From a virus, in IMG/VR virus record IMGVR_UViG_3300047318_000482, positions 1-64,000 of that record: DNA of 64,000 bases, one strand, 5' to 3'. The notes below the pieces were generated by a model, which saw nothing but the letters and a program-made list of their open reading frames with translations, ran no database searches and was not told the origin of the DNA. Position 1 is the stretch's first letter; every line of letters starts with the position of its first letter. The translations under genes and the position numbers were made by a program. This document shows positions 9,165 to 62,313 of this stretch, piece by piece.

Positions 9165-10289
9165 TCAGCGGGCGGTGGCCGCGCGCTTCTCCCGGTGCGC
9201 GACCAACAGGTCCGTCAGCTCGTCCAGGACTCGCTTCGGCATCTTGTGGATCAGGTACTGGGCGGCGCCGTGACTGTCCTCGTAGGGGAAGCGGATCCCA
9301 GGCAGCGTCGGCGGTTCCTCCGGCTCGTCGGAGGCCGAGGCGCGGCGGGGTTCGGGGACTGCCTCACCCTGACTGGATTGCGCTGCCGGGGCGGTCGGCT
9401 CCGCGAGGACGGCCGGCCCGGACGACTGCGCGGGTGGGGTGTATACCGCGGTATACCCCTCAGGAGCCGGAGCCGGGGTTGTGGCCGGGGCCGGGGCGGG
9501 CGAGGGGGGCGGGGTGTATACCGCGGTATACCCTTCCGCCTCCTCCGCAGCAGCAGGCTCTGACCGGACGGGCTCGGGCGGGGTGGGCTCGGGCACCGCC
9601 GTAATGCGGGGCGCTGGAGGACGTTCCTGGTCGGCCTTCCATGCCGGGTACTGCTGATCGGGCAACATCGCCGCGTAGCGGCGCATCTCCCGGAAAGCGG
9701 TCAGCTTGCCGTCCAGAACGAGCTGCACCATCTCGTCCGTCAGCCGCAGCAGGCCGATCCTCTGGCCGAACCACTGCTTCGACTTGCCCATGGCCTTGGC
9801 CGCGGACGACTGGTTCCCGTCGTGGAGGTCCAGCATGGCGCGCAGGCCGTTGGCCTCTTCGATGGGGTTGAAGTTCTCGCGCTGCACGTTCTCCGACAGA
9901 ACCGCGGACAGGAAACGGATCCGGGACTCTGTCAGATCGTGCCGCAGCAGCACGTCCAGAGTGTCCAGACCGACCACGAGGGCGGCCCGCCAGCGTCGCT
10001 CACCGGCCGCCATGACGTAGCGGCAGCCGTCGGGGAGCTGGTCGGCGTGCTCCGGGTAGAGCTTGAGGTAGGCGGCTTTGGCGACGGCGACGCAGGGCTG
10101 GAGCTGCCCGGAGCGCATGTCTTCGCCGAGCTCGGTGAGTCCGGCCTGGTCGAAGTCGAGGCGCGGGTTGAGGGGGGTGGGGGCGACGGTGTCGGGATGG
10201 ACGTGGACCAGGTCGGGTCGGCCTGCTCCGGGAACTGTCTCGACTTTGGCGCCGGCCAGCGAGGCGAGGGAGACGCGCTTGCCCGCCAT
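9165..10289 (-). CDS. parB: ParB-type centromere-binding protein, 374 aa
   Basis: The order is a ParB N-domain with the CTP-binding motif G96-E-R-R-W-R-A102, then E-N-V-Q-R-E-x-F-N-P-I-E-E-A (about 133-146), then a helix-turn-helix (about 160-185). A Pro/Ala-rich linker (225-330) leads to a C-terminal helical segment likely for dimerisation. ParB binds parS, loads as a CTP clamp and stimulates ParA. Two parS-like palindromes lie inside the linker and are translated as Y-T-A-V-Y-T at 254-259 and 279-284. The start overlaps the parA stop by ATGA. Confidence 0.93.
   Translation of the reverse strand: MAGKRVSLASLAGAKVETVPGAGRPDLVHVHPDTVAPTPLNPRLDFDQAGLTELGEDMRSGQLQPCVAVAKAAYLKLYPEHADQLPDGCRYVMAAGERRWRAALVVGLDTLDVLLRHDLTESRIRFLSAVLSENVQRENFNPIEEANGLRAMLDLHDGNQSSAAKAMGKSKQWFGQRIGLLRLTDEMVQLVLDGKLTAFREMRRYAAMLPDQQYPAWKADQERPPAPRITAVPEPTPPEPVRSEPAAAEEAEGYTAVYTPPPSPAPAPATTPAPAPEGYTAVYTPPAQSSGPAVLAEPTAPAAQSSQGEAVPEPRRASASDEPEEPPTLPGIRFPYEDSHGAAQYLIHKMPKRVLDELTDLLVAHREKRAATAR
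9441..9456. repeat. parS-like palindrome 1 (inside parB)
   Basis: A perfect 16-bp palindrome GTATACCGCGGTATAC, identical to four others at 9516, 11075, 11144 and 11215. It lies within the linker-coding part of parB. Confidence 0.8.
9516..9531. repeat. parS-like palindrome 2 (inside parB)
   Basis: An identical 16-bp palindrome 75 bp from copy 1, also in the parB linker and in the same reading frame, so both encode the same hexapeptide. Confidence 0.8.
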
Positions 10290-10951
10290 CAGCGGCGACC
10301 TCCGTAACCACGCTCCAGGGCCAGACGGAAGTAGTCCTCGCGGGCGCGCAGCGTGGTCCCGTTGTCGGCGTACTGGGTGACGACCTTGCCTTCGGACGCC
10401 GCACGCGTGTGGATCTTGTATCGGCGGATGACGGTCTTGGCCCGCGGCCAGCCCATGGCGTCGATGTACGCGACGGTGTCGTCGAGGTCAGCACGACCGT
10501 CGCGGGGGTCCCAGGCGTTGATGACGACCGTGTACGGCAGCCCGCGGGGAACAATGACGCGCTCGATGGTCCGGGCGGTGGGGTCGAACGCCAGCGGCTC
10601 GGGCGGCATCGGCACCAGGACGTCGTCGGCGATGTCGAGGGCCGCGGCCAGGATGTGCTCGTTCTCGAGACTGCCGGGGGTGTCGATGAAGATGTGCTGC
10701 CGCTGGTCGTTGTCGCCGAGGACGTCGTGGGTGACGGCGGCGAGGTTGACGGCGGTCGTGGTCTTGCCGACGCCGCCCTTCTGGTTCGCAATGACGTGGA
10801 TCTGCGCGCCGAGGTTCTTCAGGCCGGCGAGGCTGTCGGGGTCTTCGTGCGCGGCCGCGAAGTCGAAGGGCAGGTTGTCGCCGACTCGGTCTGCCCACCA
10901 GATGGTGGATCCCTGTGGGTCGGTGGAGACGACGAGGACTGAGGAAGGCAT
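10289..10951 (-). CDS. parA: ParA-type partition ATPase with permuted motif order, 220 aa
   Basis: All parts of a ParA/MinD-type ATPase are present but in unusual order. The Walker A' strand (VLVVSTD11-PQGS) is at the N-terminus, the deviant Walker A (K58-G-G-V-G-K63-T-T) comes after it, and Walker B (HIFID90TPG) follows 27 residues later. In ordinary ParA the Walker A is N-terminal and A' lies between A and B. Moving residues 1-50 behind residue 82 restores a normal ParA. The ATG at 10951 has GGAG five bases upstream. The gene is coupled to parB by ATGA and preceded by three parS-like palindromes. Confidence 0.9.
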   Translation of the reverse strand: MPSSVLVVSTDPQGSTIWWADRVGDNLPFDFAAAHEDPDSLAGLKNLGAQIHVIANQKGGVGKTTTAVNLAAVTHDVLGDNDQRQHIFIDTPGSLENEHILAAALDIADDVLVPMPPEPLAFDPTARTIERVIVPRGLPYTVVINAWDPRDGRADLDDTVAYIDAMGWPRAKTVIRRYKIHTRAASEGKVVTQYADNGTTLRAREDYFRLALERGYGGRR

Positions 10952-11074: not shown

Positions 11075-11090
11075 GTATACCGCGGTATAC
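11075..11090. repeat. parS-like palindrome 3 (upstream of parA)
   Basis: GTATACCGCGGTATAC, 124 bp upstream of the parA start and 69 bp from copy 4. Confidence 0.82.
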
Positions 11091-11143: not shown

Positions 11144-11159
11144 GTATACCGCGGTATAC
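11144..11159. repeat. parS-like palindrome 4 (upstream of parA)
   Basis: An identical 16-bp palindrome in the gene-free interval 10952-11277. Spacings of 69 and 71 bp to its neighbours are close to seven helical turns. Confidence 0.82.
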
Positions 11160-11214: not shown

Positions 11215-11230
11215 GTATACCGCGGTATAC
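11215..11230. repeat. parS-like palindrome 5 (upstream of parA)
   Basis: An identical 16-bp palindrome. With copies 3 and 4 it fills the 326-bp interval between the parA start and the next gene, where ParB binding could also repress parAB. Confidence 0.82.
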
Positions 11231-18410: not shown

Positions 18411-20186
18411 TCACGCGGCGGCCTGAGCCGCGTGGAGGACGGCCCGCAGGCGTGTCCCGATCCACTCGCCGACCTGCGGACTCACGGCGTTGCCGAAGCC
18501 GTCGACCTGGTTACGGGCGCTGCCCCAGACGATGAACTTGCCTTCGTAGTTGGGGAAGTCGACGTCGAAGCCGCATCCGCGGCCGACCTCGTGCGCGGCC
18601 ATCATCCGGAAGTAGCAGTCTTCGAGAGGGAGATCCTTGAGGGCGGCTCGCCATTCGGCCATCAGGAGCGCCGTTGTGTCATGGGCGGTGACCGTTCCCA
18701 CCGGGTCGGTCACCGGGTGGGGTGCGGTCTTCCCGTTCTCCTTGTACCAACCGGAGAAGAGGAGGGACTGGGAAGCGGAGGAGCCGACGAGCGTCCCGAG
18801 CGGGTTGGTGACGGGGTAGGCGCGGTAGCGGGCCTCGTCGATGGACCCGTTGTTCTTGATGGTTCCGGCGGCGGTGAGGAGGCCGGGGATTTGGTCGGAG
18901 GTGACCGTTGGCATTGCCTCGGCGTGCACGGTGGGCAAGGTGTTCTGGCGGAATGGGACGACGCCGGACGATACGACGGCGATGGTCTCCGACCCGACCT
19001 GGGTGGGTAGCGCTTCGGCAGCGCCCCGCGGGCTGCCCTGGTAGTTGTCCACGGCGAGCGCGACGGGGCGACCGGCCGAGAGGATCGATGTCTCCTGCTG
19101 GCTGGTCTGCGTGGACATCGGCTGCCACGGGGTCCGCTCGGTTCCGTGCACGCCCTTCGCCGGCATGAGGACCGCGGGGAACTCAGCGAACCGCTGACGG
19201 CAGCGTTCCGCGCGCGCCATCGTCGACGCGGCGAGGGGGCCGGTCGACCCGTCCTTGTGCTTACGGACCGGCTTGTCACCGATCCGGGTTCCGAGGTCGG
19301 TGAGGTCGAGGGCGGCGAGTGACGGGGTCATCGGCGGGACGACCGGGAACCGGCACGACGGGCACCGGTACTCGTACTGCTTGCCGTAGCGCACCGACCC
19401 GCTTGCCGGAACGCCGGTCTTCCACGCCCACACCGCCTCGACGTCCTTGTCGCAGTGGTGGCACCGGGACACCGGCCGGTGGTCGAGGTCGGGGGCAGGC
19501 AGGGACCTGTCCCAGAACGCGATGTACAGGCGATCGCGTGACTGCGGTACGCCGAAGAACATCGAGTTCAGGTACAGCACCTTGTGCCGGTAGTTGAGAA
19601 GGTCGAACTGCTTGAGCCACCACCGGTAGGTGCTGCCGTCCCCGACCTTCGTCCGGCCGAGCACGGCCGGCCCCCACGACGTGAGTTCGGTGGTGCACTC
19701 GACGAGGATGAGTCGCGGGTGGTGCTGGGCTGCGTAGTGGAGGACGCAGTTCGCCGTGGCGCGGTCACGTTCCGACTTCGTGACCCGGGCCTCGAAGTCG
19801 GGGTCTTCCATGCCGAACAGGGTCAGGCCCTGTTCGTACGCCCGGACCGTGTTGGCCTGCGAGTGGTTGACGCAGCTCACGCCTGCGACTAGGAGGTCGG
19901 CGGCGGGGAGGTCACGGGCCGAGTGGTAGTCGGCTGCGGTGGGGTCGACCAGGTCGGCGATCCAGTGCTCGGTGTCGGGGTGGTTCGCCTCATGGACCTC
20001 GATCTTATAGGCGTTGTGGTTCGCAGCCATGATCGTCGTGAACCCTGCCCGCCGGATGCCGTCCGTGAGGCCGCCGAACCCGGAGAACAGGTCGACTGCG
20101 ACCAAGTCGTCGTGGCGGAATCGGCGGCGTCTGGTGGCCGGCCGGTACGTGGCGGTCCGGATCTTCTTCTTGGACGCGACGGCCAT
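18411..20186 (-). CDS. C5-cytosine DNA methyltransferase with variant motifs, 591 aa
   Basis: Motif I D-L-F-S-G-F-G-G (about 32-39), motif IV with catalytic C105 (A-G-V-S-C-V-N-H-S), motif VI E163 (V-E-C-T), motif VIII (F-F-G-V-P-Q-S-R-D-R-L-Y-I) and motif X (G-N-A-V-S-P-Q-V) are all present and ordered. It modifies host or phage DNA, typically to evade restriction. The usual Pro before the catalytic Cys is Ser, and ENV is replaced by ECT. A two-CxxC zinc-ribbon insert lies in the middle. The start at 20186 shares one base with the upstream stop (TGATG). Confidence 0.88.
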   Translation of the reverse strand: MAVASKKKIRTATYRPATRRRRFRHDDLVAVDLFSGFGGLTDGIRRAGFTTIMAANHNAYKIEVHEANHPDTEHWIADLVDPTAADYHSARDLPAADLLVAGVSCVNHSQANTVRAYEQGLTLFGMEDPDFEARVTKSERDRATANCVLHYAAQHHPRLILVECTTELTSWGPAVLGRTKVGDGSTYRWWLKQFDLLNYRHKVLYLNSMFFGVPQSRDRLYIAFWDRSLPAPDLDHRPVSRCHHCDKDVEAVWAWKTGVPASGSVRYGKQYEYRCPSCRFPVVPPMTPSLAALDLTDLGTRIGDKPVRKHKDGSTGPLAASTMARAERCRQRFAEFPAVLMPAKGVHGTERTPWQPMSTQTSQQETSILSAGRPVALAVDNYQGSPRGAAEALPTQVGSETIAVVSSGVVPFRQNTLPTVHAEAMPTVTSDQIPGLLTAAGTIKNNGSIDEARYRAYPVTNPLGTLVGSSASQSLLFSGWYKENGKTAPHPVTDPVGTVTAHDTTALLMAEWRAALKDLPLEDCYFRMMAAHEVGRGCGFDVDFPNYEGKFIVWGSARNQVDGFGNAVSPQVGEWIGTRLRAVLHAAQAAA

Positions 20187-21067
20187 CAGGCGGCGCTCCT
20201 TTCCGTGTCGCCGCTCTGCGCGGCCGCCTTGAGTTCCTGGATGCGTCCGTCCACCAGCTCGTCGAACGTCGTCCACGCGTGCTCGGGGGGCGGCCCCTGG
20301 ACCCGGTGGTCCGACAGCCCCTTCTGCTTGCCCTCGATCTGGATCTGAACCAGCGCCAGGCGGTTGTCCCAGCAGTCCGCGATCTGCTTCATCAGCCGCG
20401 GCAGCGGGCCAGGGCCGCTCTCGGGGTCCGTGTCCTGCTCCGGTGCGGGCCGGTTGTGCTCCTCGGAGGGAGACGGCCGAGCGGCCGACAAGATGCCGTC
20501 GTCCTCAGCGCTCTTCGCGTGCTCGGTCTGTGCCTCCCGCAGATCCGACTTGGCCCACAGGTCCAGAGCGGCACCGAAGCGCATGGCCGCGTTCCGAAGG
20601 GCATCACCGATGGCTTCCTTCACGGCGTTGGGGCCCTTCTTGCCCTGGGCGTCGCCGTACCCCAGCCGGGTCTTCCCGCAGACCGTCAGACGGATCCACA
20701 GGCCACCGTCGGCGTCGAACAGGGGCAGACCCCGATCGTCCGAGGCGACCGGCTCCCAGTCCCACAGCGGGTCGGCGTCCAGCAGCCGGTTCGTCAGTTC
20801 GGCGTGCCCGACGTAGTCCAGGTGCAGATGCCAGACGCTGACGTAGTTCCCGCACTCCTTGCACTCCTGCTTCGCGTGGCGCGGGTTCTCGCACACGCCA
20901 GTACGGGAGTTGCGGCAGGCACCGCACTTGAGCCGGGGAAGGTGCTGGATCTGCTCGATCGGGAAGTCCTCGCGCAGCTTCGCGAGTCCAGCGGCCTGAT
21001 TTGGGGTGTGCGAGGTGGGGCCCTCCGCCGTCGTGCCGGTGGCGGGGGCCTCAATGCCCTGCGGCAT
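20186..21067 (-). CDS. Rad52-like single-strand annealing protein, 293 aa
   Basis: Residues about 125-175 carry the Rad52-family core: a beta strand pair (LWIRLTV) then the K-E-A-I-G-D-A-L-R-N-A-A-x-R-F-G-A-A-L helix. Upstream is a zinc site (C48-x2-C51 with C58, and C69-x2-C72). The C-terminus is acidic and disordered. Such phage annealases drive recombination and concatemer formation. It is coupled to the methyltransferase (TGATG), and AGGAG precedes its ATG. A DUF1071-type relative is the alternative label. Confidence 0.72.
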   Translation of the reverse strand: MPQGIEAPATGTTAEGPTSHTPNQAAGLAKLREDFPIEQIQHLPRLKCGACRNSRTGVCENPRHAKQECKECGNYVSVWHLHLDYVGHAELTNRLLDADPLWDWEPVASDDRGLPLFDADGGLWIRLTVCGKTRLGYGDAQGKKGPNAVKEAIGDALRNAAMRFGAALDLWAKSDLREAQTEHAKSAEDDGILSAARPSPSEEHNRPAPEQDTDPESGPGPLPRLMKQIADCWDNRLALVQIQIEGKQKGLSDHRVQGPPPEHAWTTFDELVDGRIQELKAAAQSGDTERSAA

Positions 21068-56850: not shown

Positions 56851-58467
56851 TTAGCGGCGGCCGCGGAGGCGCTGGTCGGTGTAGTGCCGGGTGCCGAGGC
56901 CTTCCTGGGCGGGGTCGGCGAGCTCGGTCATCGCATGGACGGCGGCGTCCATGCGGTCGGGTGAGTCCATGCCGGGGATCCAGGTGACCATCTGGCCCTC
57001 CAGGCGGGGGAACTCGCCGAGGTGGTGGACGAGGCCTTGGGCGTAGAGCTGGGCAATCGGCTCGGCGCGCAGGCGTTTGCCCTGCTTGGCGTGCACCTCG
57101 ATGATCGACGGCATGAGCAGGCCCTTGGTCTCCCCCTGCTGGGCAAGGGTCTTCCACGCCTGCCGGATGATCTGCTGGGCCATGTCGCCGCCGAAGTTGG
57201 CCTCGACGACGATGGCATCGGCCTGGTACTCGATGGCCAGGCGGCAGGCTTCGATGCCCCAGGTGTCAGCGCCCATGCGGCCGGATGCATCGGCCAGCAG
57301 GTACAGGTGTCCTTCGCTGTTGCGTCCTGCCGCGCACAGGCCGGCTTCGTCGTTGCCGTCGCCTTCACCGCCGGCGTGGTCCACGGCCACGATGGTCCGG
57401 GTGAGGTCGATGCCGCGGAATGCCATGGGGGTGATGCGGTTATCGGTGATCCACGGCCATTTCCACACGCCGCCCTCAAGCGGGCGCGGTTTCTGCATGT
57501 AGAGGGACCACCAGACGCGTTCCCCAACCGCGCGGCGGATCTTCTCGAGGGCTTTGCTGCCGTAGCGGATGGGCCACAGGGGGCGGCCGATCTCGCGTCC
57601 CAGGGCGTCGTCGTCGCTGTCGGCGATGGCGGGCAGGTCGAGGATGGTCCAGTCGTCGGCGTCCTCGCCCGCGAGGATGCGTCCGGCGAGGTCCTGTTCG
57701 TGCCAGCGGGTCTGGATGACCAGGATGCTGCCGCCGGGTTCGATGCGGGTGTTGAGGACGGACGTCCACCAGTCCCACAGGCGGCGCCGCATGGTCGGGG
57801 ACTCGGCGTCCGCGGCGTCCTTAATTGGATCATCGACAACTGCCAGGTGGGCGCCCTTGCCGGTGAGGCCTCCGCCGACGCCGGCGGTGACGAGGCCACC
57901 TTCGAGGCGTTCCCCGGTGTCGGGGTCGGCGAGGTCGAACCGGTTCGCAGCCTTGGAGCCGGAGTGCAGGGCGAGGCCGAGCTGGGGGCCGTAGGAGACG
58001 ATCGCGTCGCGGATCCACCGGCCGTGGTCGTCGGCCAGGTCCGCAGAGTATGAGGCGATCATGACGCGGTGGTCGGGGTGTTTCGACAGGTACCACAGGG
58101 GCGCCCACCGGGCGGCACGCCGGCTCTTCCCGTGCCGTGGGGGCATGGTGATGAGGACCTTGCGGGGCCGGCCGCGGGCGATGTCGCGGAACACCTGGTC
58201 GATCAGGTCCAGGTGGCGGGCCTGCTTCTCCTTGCCGTCGGTGAGGATCGCCGACATGGAGCCCGGGGACCGCTTCAGCGCCATGTCCCGTTCGACTCCG
58301 GCCAGGACGGTGCGGAGTTCGGGGCTGGCGTACAGGGCGATGCGGCGGCGCTGGGCACGGTTCAAGCGCCGGTACTGGGCGACGGTCTGGAGGAGTTCCT
58401 CCGCCTCGCGGACGATGTCGCTGTCGTCCTGCCGCGGGTGAGACTCAGGTGTCGCCGCGGTCGTCAT
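56851..58467 (-). CDS. terL: large terminase subunit, 538 aa
   Basis: The ATPase half has Walker A M-P-P-R-H-G-K-S (108-115), Walker B L-A-V-V-D-D-P (208-214) and the C-motif region Q-T-R-W-H-E-Q. The nuclease half has acidic strands V-D-H-A-G-G-E-G-D-G-N-D-E-A-G and V-E-A-N-F-G-G-D and the closing D-R-M-D-A-A-V-H-A. It translocates DNA into the capsid and cuts it. Its start overlaps the small terminase end by 23 bases. Confidence 0.95.
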   Translation of the reverse strand: MTTAATPESHPRQDDSDIVREAEELLQTVAQYRRLNRAQRRRIALYASPELRTVLAGVERDMALKRSPGSMSAILTDGKEKQARHLDLIDQVFRDIARGRPRKVLITMPPRHGKSRRAARWAPLWYLSKHPDHRVMIASYSADLADDHGRWIRDAIVSYGPQLGLALHSGSKAANRFDLADPDTGERLEGGLVTAGVGGGLTGKGAHLAVVDDPIKDAADAESPTMRRRLWDWWTSVLNTRIEPGGSILVIQTRWHEQDLAGRILAGEDADDWTILDLPAIADSDDDALGREIGRPLWPIRYGSKALEKIRRAVGERVWWSLYMQKPRPLEGGVWKWPWITDNRITPMAFRGIDLTRTIVAVDHAGGEGDGNDEAGLCAAGRNSEGHLYLLADASGRMGADTWGIEACRLAIEYQADAIVVEANFGGDMAQQIIRQAWKTLAQQGETKGLLMPSIIEVHAKQGKRLRAEPIAQLYAQGLVHHLGEFPRLEGQMVTWIPGMDSPDRMDAAVHAMTELADPAQEGLGTRHYTDQRLRGRR

Positions 58468-58996
58468 CCGGGTCGTCTTCGTCGGCGTCGGTGTCTTCCC
58501 CTGCGTCGTCGGGGTCGTCGTCTCCCACCGTGTTGATGAGTCTGCGGAGTTCGGCGGCGCTGACGTCCGTGATCGCTACGGGGCCGCCGCCGGGCCCGGC
58601 GAGCTCGTTCTTCACTGGCATGTCCAGGCCGTTGAGCTTGGCGCGCCGGTCCAGGAGCCGCAGCACGGTGTCGACGGCCCGAACGTCCAGGACGTGGTCG
58701 ACGACGTCGCCGTCCTTGTCAAAGACCGGGCTGGGTTTAGTGGCGCGCGGCCATGCGGCCTCGAGGAGGGCGTCCAAGCGTTCGTTCTCCTGCTGCCGGT
58801 AGATGCTGGCCTCGGCTGCTTCCTCGTCTCGGTGGACCTGGAGGGCGCGTACGAGGTCTTTGCGGGCGGCGCTGTCGCTGGCGTAGCCGAGGGAGAGGAT
58901 GCGTTCGTCGTCGTAGCGAACGCCTTCTCGGCGGAGCTTGAGGAGCTTGGTGCGGCGGACGGTGGTCTCGTCTTGTTTCAGCTTGGACGCTGCCAT
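58445..58996 (-). CDS. terS: small terminase subunit, 183 aa
   Basis: An N-terminal helix-turn-helix (R-R-T-K-L-L-K-L-R-R-E-G and Y-A-S-D-S-A-A-R-K-D-L-V, about 14-60) is followed by a coiled-coil oligomerisation region and a very acidic tail (D-D-P-D-D-A-G-E-D). This is the standard small terminase build, which recognises pac or cos sites. The start at 58996 is followed by overlap into terL. A pac/cos site cannot be located by eye. Confidence 0.8.
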   Translation of the reverse strand: MAASKLKQDETTVRRTKLLKLRREGVRYDDERILSLGYASDSAARKDLVRALQVHRDEEAAEASIYRQQENERLDALLEAAWPRATKPSPVFDKDGDVVDHVLDVRAVDTVLRLLDRRAKLNGLDMPVKNELAGPGGGPVAITDVSAAELRRLINTVGDDDPDDAGEDTDADEDDPDDDRGDT

Positions 58997-59039
58997 GGCG
59001 GTGGGGCTCCCGCTCGGTCGCTCGGTTGTGTGATTGTTC

Positions 59040-59052
59040 GGCCCCGCGCCTG
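59040..59052 (-). promoter_or_regulatory. late-leader stem-loop motif, copy 3
   Basis: CAGGCGCGGGGCC on the minus strand, 43 bases upstream of the small terminase start, in the divergent gap with the lipoprotein gene. GATC appears 8 bases away. Confidence 0.55.
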
Positions 59053-59119
59053 TGTCGAATGATCGCCGATTTTGGGGATTGTGTTCCCCCGGGGGTGGGT
59101 TGGCGGGATGCTGCCCGGC

Positions 59120-59818
59120 ATGAGTGAGATGCGCAGGGGGTGGGCGGCTGCTGCTGGTGCGGTGGCCGTGGTGGTGTTGGCGGGTTGCGGGGGCGGCTCG
59201 GGTTCGGATGTGAAGGCGAGTTCGCCGACGCCGTCGGTGACGGTGTCGGAGGATCCGGCGACGGAGGTGCCGGAGGAGACGGAGCCGGAGTATCCGCCGG
59301 GGCCGGAGGGGGAGATCGACAAGAAGGCGGATGAGGAAGGCTGGACGTACGACGAGATCTATGACTCGGCGTCGGCGTTCGTGTCGGACATCTGTGAGTC
59401 GCTGCCGGATCAGTCGAAGGACTATTCGGGGGCGCAGTGGCTGGCTGAGGGCGGCTACCTGAAGGATGACGGCGCATCGATCCTGGATGTGGGGGTGCCG
59501 AAGCTGTGCCCGAAGTGGTCGAAGACGTTGAAGTCGGCGGAGGCTGGCACGTACGTCCGGTACATCGGGTCTGGAGAGTACGAGGTGAAGGCGCATCCGA
59601 AGCCGTACGACCCGGAGTCGGATTCTGATGTGCAGGAGATCAAGCCCGGTACGTATGTGGCGCGGGGTGAGATCTCGGACTGCTACTGGGAGCGGACGGC
59701 GCCGGACGGGACGATCCTCGCGAACAATTTTGTGACGCAGGCGCGGGTGATCACGGTGACGCTGCGGGTGGGCGAGTTGTTCAAGAACGACTGCGGGATG
59801 TTCAAGCCGGTGGGCTGA
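59120..59818 (+). CDS. lipoprotein, probable lysogenic-conversion (moron) gene, 232 aa
   Basis: The signal peptide MSEMRRGWAAAAGAVAVVV ends in lipobox L-A-G-C (C23). A Pro/Glu/Thr-rich linker (about 28-70) precedes a globular domain with a few Cys (for example C-E-S, L-C-P-K, D-C-Y-W, D-C-G). It is the only plus-strand gene in the virion region and has its own terminator. Surface lipoproteins of prophages often exclude related phages. An ATG at 59108 is an alternative start. Confidence 0.82.
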   Translation: MSEMRRGWAAAAGAVAVVVLAGCGGGSGSDVKASSPTPSVTVSEDPATEVPEETEPEYPPGPEGEIDKKADEEGWTYDEIYDSASAFVSDICESLPDQSKDYSGAQWLAEGGYLKDDGASILDVGVPKLCPKWSKTLKSAEAGTYVRYIGSGEYEVKAHPKPYDPESDSDVQEIKPGTYVARGEISDCYWERTAPDGTILANNFVTQARVITVTLRVGELFKNDCGMFKPVG

Positions 59819-59841
59819 CGTAGCGCCCCGGGATGTGGGAA

Positions 59842-59885
59842 GGCCCCGCTCCGCTCTCCGGGGGACTGGAGTGCGGAGCGGGGCC
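59842..59885 (+). terminator. terminator of lipoprotein gene
   Basis: A perfect 13-bp stem (59842-59854 with 59873-59885) with an 18-base loop, 24 bases past the stop. A G10-type run follows at about 59905. Confidence 0.82.
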
Positions 59886-59944
59886 GGGTGCTCGTGGCTG
59901 CCGGGGGGGGGGTGGCCTCGAGCGGTGGGGGTGTGGGGTTCACG

Positions 59945-59986
59945 GCCGGCCTCGCCTTGGCGCGGGGACACTAAGACGAGGCCGGC
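59945..59986 (-). terminator. terminator of transfer operon
   Basis: A 10-bp perfect stem (59945-59954 with 59977-59986) with a larger loop, 60 bases past the traB-like stop. It separates the transfer operon from the lipoprotein gene. Confidence 0.7.
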
Positions 59987-60045
59987 TGTGCACTTCTGAT
60001 GGTGGTACAGGATCGCGGGTTTGTCCGAGGCGCCTTCCCCCTCGG

Positions 60046-62313
60046 CTACTCCCCCGTGAGTACGGTGCCCAGCCCGTACTTGCCGCGGACGGCCTGGCCG
60101 CTGCCGGGCATGCGGTGGATGCGCTGGTCCTTGACGAGGCGCGAGAGCCGGTTCTCCAGGGTGGAGTCGGTGAGCTTGGTGAGGGCCTGGATGTCGTCCT
60201 TGTGGAGGTAGGTGGTCTCCTCGCCGAGGGGGTCGGCTGCGTCCTGGAGGGCGGTGAGGATCTTTTCGTCCGCGGTGGGTTCCTTCGGCGGGGCGGGCAG
60301 GGCCGTGCCTCCGCCGCCACTCTGGCCGGCTTCGTCTTCGTCGTCGGGGAGGATCGACGTGCGGCCGATCTCGTGGCGGTTCTCCCATCCGGGCCAGTCC
60401 GCCGGGTGCTGGACGGCGTCTTCGTCGATGTAGGGGGCGGCGGACTCGAGGATGAAGTCGCGCATCATTTCCGCTGCTCCCCCGGGTCCGAGGGTGTAGC
60501 CGAGTCCGTAGGTGGATTCGGGGTCCTGGAGGGCGACGGTCTCGTTGTAGATGAGGGGCCGGCTGACGTCCCAGGCCGGGGGGATCTGGCCGGGGTCGAC
60601 GCCTTCGAAGCCGGTGGTGACGAGGTTGGACTGGTCGGAGTCGGTGCGGAGCATGACCAGGGAGCCACCCTGGATGACGTTGGTGCGCAGGGCGGTGGAT
60701 CCGCCGAGCTTGTCGGCGTTCACGGCCTGGTTGACGACGGTGAGGATGATGCCGAGAGAGCGGGCCTTCGCGGCCAGCGCCTCCACAATGATCTTTGCTT
60801 CCTTGCGGTGCTCGACGAGCTCGGACAGGGGGACGTGGGCTTCGTCGAGGATTACGCGCACCCACGGCCGGCCCGGGGTGGGGGTGAAGTTCTTCATCTT
60901 CAGCCGGGCGGACTCCTCGATCCGCCACTGCAGGAGGGCGTAGGCGACGCGCAGGGCGCGCATGCAGCCGTCTTCTCCGAGGCCGGAGTAGCAGGCCATG
61001 GTCTCGACGTCGGGGTTGGAGGAGCCCTTGGGGTCGGCGTAGATGATGGCGTGGCCGTTGACGTGGTCGGCTAGGGCGACGATCTGGATGAGTCCGCCCT
61101 TGCCGGATCCGGTGACGCCGGCAATGAAGAGGTGCTTGGCGCCCAGCTTGGGGTCGACGAACTGGATGCGGGCGGGGAAGCCGGAGACGTGCTGGCCGAT
61201 CTGGACGTAGCCGCCGTCGGAGATTTTCAGGACGTGGGTGCCGGGGAAGGGCACGCCTTGCTTGAGGGGGTTGTGCTTCATGAGGCGGACGGTGCCGCGG
61301 CGGGGGTCTCCGGGGACGGGGCTGTAGGAGCAGAGGAGGGTGTTGGTGCGCAGCGCGCCGGCGAGGGCGGCGCGGTCGGGGACGGGGAGTTTGTCGAGGT
61401 TCTCGCCGGCGACGACGTAGGCGACTTCGCCTCCGGTGTTGGGGTCGGTCTGGGCGTCTTCGAGGTGGGTGCCGGCCATGACGCCGCCGCTGCGGGCGGC
61501 CCACTTGCGCCAGGCGCCCTGGAGGGTGCTGGTGTCGAGTTCGAGAGGCGGGACCAGGTTGACCGTGAGGTGGCATTCCCCGGCGTGGGCACCGGTTTTG
61601 AGGGTGATCCAGTCGGCGGGGATGCCGTAGAGGCTGGAAATGTTGTCGCGGTTGACGGAGACGGACGCTCCGGTGGGGGCGGTGATGGTGCCTTTCCAGA
61701 GGTGGCTTCCGTATCCGGTGACCTGGAGTTCTTGGCCCTTGTGGCTGCCGGTGTCGCGGTTGGAGACGTACGTGTACCAGCGGTGGGCGATCTGGTCGGC
61801 GGGGGTGAGGGGTTCGGGCACGGTCGGGGCGGCTGCGGGGGCGGTGGGCGCGGTGTGCTTGGGGGCGCGGACCCGGCCGAGGACCTTGCGGAGTTTGATG
61901 GGGACGAATCCGACGGCGGCAAACCAGCCGAGGGAGACGATGCCGGGGATCGGCTTGGCGGCGATGTCGGCCCAGCCGAGCATCAGCGCGTCGGATCCCT
62001 CGCCGCCCAGGAGGGCGCCCATGGCGAGGGCGACGCCGCTGGTGAGGGTGGAGATGGCGAGGGGCACGCTGTGTGCGCGGAGGATGTCCCCGGGCAGGTG
62101 CCGCTGTAGGCCCGGTGGGAGCCGGTTCATGTAGTTCGCGGTGGTGAGGGCGGCGGCGCCGCCGTAGGCGATGGTGGCGAGGAAGGTGGCGCTGGCGTCG
62201 AGGAAGGGGATTCCGGCGCCCATGGCGAGGGGGGCGACGCTGGTGGCGATGGCGATGCCGCGTTCGGTGCTGTGGGCGGCCAGCCGGCTGGTGGTGTTGG
62301 TGTTGCTGGTCAT
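60046..62313 (-). CDS. traB: TraB/FtsK-like conjugative DNA translocase, 755 aa
   Basis: The N-terminal half has four hydrophobic segments (about 20-38, 44-58, 84-103 and 121-138). The motor domain has Walker A G399-V-T-G-S-G-K405-G-G and Walker B V-I-L-D490-E, with the RecA-like Q-A-V-N-A-D region after. The C-terminus is a winged-helix gamma-type domain (D-E-K-I-L-T-A-L, about 685-750) used by TraB to bind 8-bp clt repeats. TraB-type hexamers move double-stranded plasmid DNA between mycelia. Its presence next to a full siphovirus module marks a conjugative phage-plasmid. Confidence 0.9.
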   Translation of the reverse strand: MTSNTNTTSRLAAHSTERGIAIATSVAPLAMGAGIPFLDASATFLATIAYGGAAALTTANYMNRLPPGLQRHLPGDILRAHSVPLAISTLTSGVALAMGALLGGEGSDALMLGWADIAAKPIPGIVSLGWFAAVGFVPIKLRKVLGRVRAPKHTAPTAPAAAPTVPEPLTPADQIAHRWYTYVSNRDTGSHKGQELQVTGYGSHLWKGTITAPTGASVSVNRDNISSLYGIPADWITLKTGAHAGECHLTVNLVPPLELDTSTLQGAWRKWAARSGGVMAGTHLEDAQTDPNTGGEVAYVVAGENLDKLPVPDRAALAGALRTNTLLCSYSPVPGDPRRGTVRLMKHNPLKQGVPFPGTHVLKISDGGYVQIGQHVSGFPARIQFVDPKLGAKHLFIAGVTGSGKGGLIQIVALADHVNGHAIIYADPKGSSNPDVETMACYSGLGEDGCMRALRVAYALLQWRIEESARLKMKNFTPTPGRPWVRVILDEAHVPLSELVEHRKEAKIIVEALAAKARSLGIILTVVNQAVNADKLGGSTALRTNVIQGGSLVMLRTDSDQSNLVTTGFEGVDPGQIPPAWDVSRPLIYNETVALQDPESTYGLGYTLGPGGAAEMMRDFILESAAPYIDEDAVQHPADWPGWENRHEIGRTSILPDDEDEAGQSGGGGTALPAPPKEPTADEKILTALQDAADPLGEETTYLHKDDIQALTKLTDSTLENRLSRLVKDQRIHRMPGSGQAVRGKYGLGTVLTGE

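Follow-up and report, generated by a model that had tools for sequence, protein, structure and literature searches.

ParA proteins with exchanged Walker A and A' blocks on plasmids and phages of Streptomyces and other genera

Few NTPases are as common as the ParA-type ATPases, which, to our knowledge, have been seen with one order of nucleotide-binding motifs only, namely Walker A, A' and Walker B. The solved small ParAs that give the best sequence and fold matches in the PDB to the protein described here, ParF/TP228 ParA and Synechocystis ParA (3cwq), have this canonical order. Reordered motifs are found in other P-loop NTPases, the circularly permuted GTPases of the YRG/YlqF type (G4-G5-G1-G2-G3) and cpRAS (G3-G4-G5-G1-G2), in which function is believed to be kept (PMC2430557). 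The major capsid protein of BPP-1 has a non-circularly permuted HK97 fold, two adjacent elements being naturally exchanged while the fold is kept (PMC3863775). For the parA genes of pZL12, pSLE1 and pSAM1, annotated plainly as ParA, the order of motifs is unremarked in both the records and the open-licence papers. In passages of a survey from 2026 that deals with ParAs of Streptomyces plasmids, the ATP-binding residues are noted as conserved and motif order goes unmentioned (PMC13245405), and full-text searches of the open-licence literature brought up no permuted ParA, MinD or SIMIBI protein.

The protein described here is encoded in a stretch of 64,000 nucleotides (the window; positions 1 to 64,000 of IMG/VR record IMGVR_UViG_3300047318_000482). 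In its translation the A' motif (VLVVSTD11PQGS) is followed by Walker A (NQK58GGVGK63TT) and then by Walker B (IFID90TPG), with K63 and D90 only 27 residues apart. An earlier sequence-only reading of the window had claimed this order, and the swap of two adjacent blocks behind it, and both claims are borne out. The deviant P-loop KGGxGK[TS] with its signature lysine is intact (K58-GGVGK-T64), and the aspartates of the A' and Walker B motifs are D11 and D90. By motif content the protein is a small ParA of type I ParABS that lacks one common feature of the class, the order A, A', B. It shares the motifs and the C-terminal half with ParF/TP228 ParA and 3cwq. Since the C-terminal part stays in last place and the first two blocks alone are exchanged (A'-A-B-C instead of A-A'-B-C), the rearrangement is not a circular permutation with new termini. 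In this respect it differs from the YRG/YlqF-type and cpRAS GTPases.

The extent of the exchanged blocks was determined by a transposition scan, in which the block boundaries were moved on a 3-residue grid and scored against a canonical Micromonospora ParA (L051). The optimum was the exchange of residues 1-48 with residues 49-81, which scored 709 vs. 571 for the protein as written. When all six orders of the three blocks were scored against seven canonical-order ParAs, A-A'-B came out on top every time (702 against L051), and together with the scan this rules out a misreading of the alignment. Restored to canonical order, the window ParA aligns end to end, over 98% of its length, with plasmid ParAs of Micromonospora and Verrucosispora, to which it is 61-62% identical. 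In a Dactylosporangium genome, HMMER matched the query in three blocks, whose order in the DNA was canonical (query residues 46-79, 3-48 and 84-218). The curated model NF041546 matches the window ParA in two stretches with 71.6 bits, below its cut-off of 180; the canonical relative L038 is also below the cut-off (83 bits), but matches in a single stretch (7-216). Profiles that expect A-A'-B score the swapped ParAs in pieces, and searches with them therefore understate these proteins. A hidden Walker A upstream, within a longer open frame of 322 aa, was also considered and rejected, as this stretch is the array of parS-like sites and matches neither block better than shuffles do.

Table 1. Features of the parABS locus in the window (positions are those of the window).
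Feature	Position	Strand	Remarks
parB	9165..10289	-	374 aa (ParB_N + HTH_ParB); start codon shares one base with the parA stop (TGATG)
parS-like palindrome GTATACCGCGGTATAC	9441..9456	.	inside parB, translated YTAVY
parS-like palindrome GTATACCGCGGTATAC	9516..9531	.	inside parB, translated YTAVY
parA, block-swapped ParA ATPase	10289..10951 (incl. stop)	-	220 aa; Pfam AAA_31/CbiA; phrog_164 ParA-like; NF041546 in two stretches
Block B+C (aa 86-220)	10292..10696	-	Walker B HIFID90TPG and unchanged C-terminal ParA part
Block A (aa 50-85)	10697..10804	-	strand of Walker A, then deviant P-loop K58GGVGK63TT and helix alpha1; second block here, first in canonical ParAs
Block A' (aa 1-49)	10805..10951	-	A' strand (contains D11-P-Q-G-S) and helix, then LPFDF strand and helix; first block here, second in canonical ParAs
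parS-like palindrome GTATACCGCGGTATAC	11075..11090	.	upstream of parA
parS-like palindrome GTATACCGCGGTATAC	11144..11159	.	upstream of parA
parS-like palindrome GTATACCGCGGTATAC	11215..11230	.	upstream of parA

The gene has the surroundings of a ParABS system of type I: parA is followed by a parB of ordinary type with ParB_N and HTH domains, and a putative centromere site is repeated (Table 1). The unbroken frame, the ATG with a proper ribosome binding site (GGAG) and the coupling to parB had also been reported in the sequence-only reading and hold true; start codon, GGAG and parB overlap are kept in nearly all swapped parA loci. The palindrome occurs in five exact copies in the window, 0 being expected in shuffles, and sites in both places, upstream of parA and within parB, are kept in close relatives. 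Position, palindromy and repetition make these copies candidate parS sites. The two copies in parB are read as GYTAVYT in a proline-rich linker, where close relatives have one or two, and the candidate centromere sites therefore double as coding sequence. The source record (90,525 bases) contains genes for terminase, major head, minor tail and endolysin proteins, which identify it as the genome of a phage of the same kind as pZL12 and pSAM1, and the parABS locus suggests that it is kept as a plasmid. This phage-plasmid also encodes a DNA methyltransferase of 621 aa (18411-20276, minus strand). Beside the large terminase gene there is a 1043-aa frame (58445-61576, minus strand), which a phage family named RNase E matches over the last 180 residues only.

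At least 38 further distinct proteins share the swapped order. They come from Streptomyces, Kitasatospora, Embleya and Actinocorallia (contig L024), and include the ParAs of pSAM1, pSLE1, pFRL2 and phage ZL12. In tblastn searches 34 plasmid records matched the window ParA end to end and in one piece at 63-97% identity, and phage ZL12 (one phage with two database entries) did so at 65%. Scanned viral contigs and genome contigs had 9 and 24 swapped-order loci, respectively, although these collections share members with the plasmid set. After deduplication there were 37 distinct proteins including that of the window, with two more in L076 and L079; in each of these the order was taken from the sequence itself, and for the other plasmid matches it follows from the ungapped span. 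In a genome census centred on loci from genomes other than the window's record (L015 and Dactylosporangium), full-length swapped matches were found in 13 of 394 genomes sampled from the genus to which L015 belongs (Streptomyces) and in one of 395 in a class-level sample around Dactylosporangium. Besides phage-plasmids, the carriers include linear plasmids, for instance pFRL2 (with a MOBF relaxase), an S. atratus plasmid of 898 kb and an Embleya replicon of 3.1 Mb. The suggestion that the swap is a natural variant of a phage-plasmid group is thus upheld as regards its natural origin, but not as regards its restriction to phage-plasmids, as linear plasmids and Actinocorallia have it too.

The active-site residues of the swapped ParAs are strictly conserved. 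In 30 aligned proteins D11, P12, Q13, S15, the whole stretch N56-Q57-K58-G59-G60-V61-G62-K63-T64-T65, D90-T91-P92-G93 and R176-R177-Y178-K179 are invariant. The A' aspartate, the P-loop and the Walker B aspartate must therefore still meet at one site. The new junction has a GA dipeptide in 36 of the 37 swapped ParAs, with near-fixed spacings, and none of the canonical sequences examined has GA before Walker B. The median pairwise dN/dS is 0.30 (0.29 for block A', 0.41 for A and 0.27 for B+C), these ratios being rough because many of the pairs are close to saturation at synonymous sites; between the parA of the window and that of L005, dN is 0.057 and dS 0.729. Judged by these substitution rates, the swapped parA is under purifying selection. 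On the whole, the sequences indicate that the swapped order, conserved across a family of Streptomycetaceae plasmids and phage-plasmids, is a real and inherited rewiring of the ParA enzyme core, and very likely a working one.

The known MinD/ParA folds have the A' and A strands on either side of the Walker B strand, and the three begin from one common edge of the sheet. An exchange of A and A' would consequently rewire loops alone. The sequence-only reading had asked whether beta1 and beta2 trade places in the sheet; they need not, and strands kept in place with three loops rewired would be the simpler solution. AlphaFold2, run with the alignment of 30 swapped ParAs, gave a best model with a mean pLDDT of 84.6 and pTM of 0.88, and the predicted elements (E5-9, H15-26, E30-33, H38-47, E50-54, H63-78 and E86-90) are as expected for both blocks. 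The five models disagree, however, their mean pLDDT falling from 84.6 to 50.0, whereas those of the canonical control L038 are alike (85.1 to 79.8). The predicted fold is confident but model-dependent. In sequential Foldseek comparisons with ParF (4e03, 4dzz and 4e07) the swapped model had TMt values of 0.57-0.63 and rmsd of 4.8-6.5, while the canonical control had TMt values of 0.84-0.86 and rmsd of 2.9-3.1. Such a low sequential score should be expected of a rewired chain on the same architecture, and a wrong model would look similar. Foldseek against viral models found nothing beyond short local or unrelated matches.

We put at roughly 80% the probability that the swapped protein serves as ATPase in a ParABS system of type I, with its first two beta-alpha blocks transposed, folding as the usual ParA sheet and going back to a single probable swap. 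Transposition of these blocks in the gene would have turned A-A'-B-C into A'-A-B-C, and the chain would still fold with each strand in its usual place, only three loops being rewired and the right-handed crossovers and helix faces retained. Like other small ParAs, the protein would bind ATP and the nucleoid, form a sandwich dimer and hydrolyse ATP under stimulation by ParB, and it would move those plasmid copies to which ParB is bound at GTATACCGCGGTATAC sites. Probably there was one swap event, in which the 5' part of the gene was tandemly duplicated and the first A and last A' copies were then lost; direct transposition of block A would be an alternative route. Among the loci examined there was no duplicated intermediate (A-A'-A-A'-B), and no remnant of a lost block was found beside parA.

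The nearest canonical-order relatives of the swapped ParAs are plasmid ParAs of Micromonospora, Verrucosispora and Dactylosporangium (e.g., WP_112583584 and WP_176096110). The parA-parB arrangement is common to both, but the canonical proteins have the order A-A'-B, no GA junction and a longer A-A' linker. In the four nearest ones (L011, L038, L051 and L052) the Walker A-A' spacing is 48, about 10 longer than the 34-39 of the other canonical ParAs of the family, which might be a trace of rearrangement. Trees were built from the unaffected C-terminal part and from the re-ordered full length, and in both the swapped ParAs cluster strongly.

Several other explanations of the swapped order may be considered. 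Apart from the oddity of the order, nothing speaks for a rearrangement of a normal parA during assembly or cloning of this record. Dozens of plasmids, phages and genomes that were sequenced independently have identical order and breakpoints (63-99% identity), among them pSLE1, for which PacBio and Illumina reads were combined in the assembly (PMC4487206) and whose ParA has the swapped form. The homologue search proposed in the sequence-only reading turned up the same order in dozens of proteins; an assembly error and a misread alignment, which that reading had named as possible refutations, both fail because the swap is in frame, under purifying selection and common to at least 38 other proteins, and an artefact is extremely improbable. 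A decayed or non-ATPase form retained for another role, for example as operon regulator, would fit the unusual motif order and one member without a normal C terminus (L009/L026, Streptomyces sp. WAC08241), yet the catalytic residues are all invariant down to proteins 66% identical to that of the window, dN/dS is low in every block, and it is the swapped ParA that adjoins parB and the parS-like sites. This makes decay very unlikely. The aberrant member itself (L009/L026:3001-3645) enters an unrelated reading of 276 aa past residue 215, which suggests a frameshift or sequencing error near the C terminus.

The retention of the usual sheet and the single origin have rivals of their own. The A and A' strands could trade positions in the sheet, or the A' block could be exchanged between dimer protomers, with the coupling of the switches altered. 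The variation among the AlphaFold2 models would agree with this, the strand order is deduced from known folds, and the short GA junction, which is conserved, could favour one wiring as well as the other; exchanged strands, however, would move the invariant active-site residues apart, which loop rewiring, to judge from the known fold, would not, and we regard such an exchange as unlikely. It is somewhat less doubtful that the swap arose more than once, or that the canonical order of the Micromonosporaceae is its reversal. The best trees need two order changes, since the canonical Micromonosporaceae ParAs (L011, L038, L051 and L052) fall, weakly supported, inside the swapped group. A single swapped clade is nevertheless not rejected (p-AU 0.33 and 0.36), and the common breakpoints and GA junction fit one event, so that a repeated origin or reversal is considered rather improbable.

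It is fairly likely that these proteins are deviant Walker A (SIMIBI) ATPases with a segment permutation that is natural, heritable and non-circular, their function being kept by topology-neutral rewiring of three loops; for ParA/MinD-type proteins this would apparently be the first such case described. While the capsid protein of BPP-1 has almost no sequence identity to proteins of the other order, swapped and canonical ParAs are about 60% identical. The survival of both orders at this level of identity is an unusual opportunity to examine the mutual dependence of chain order, fold and switch motion, as well as the way in which rearrangements of this sort pass through evolution.
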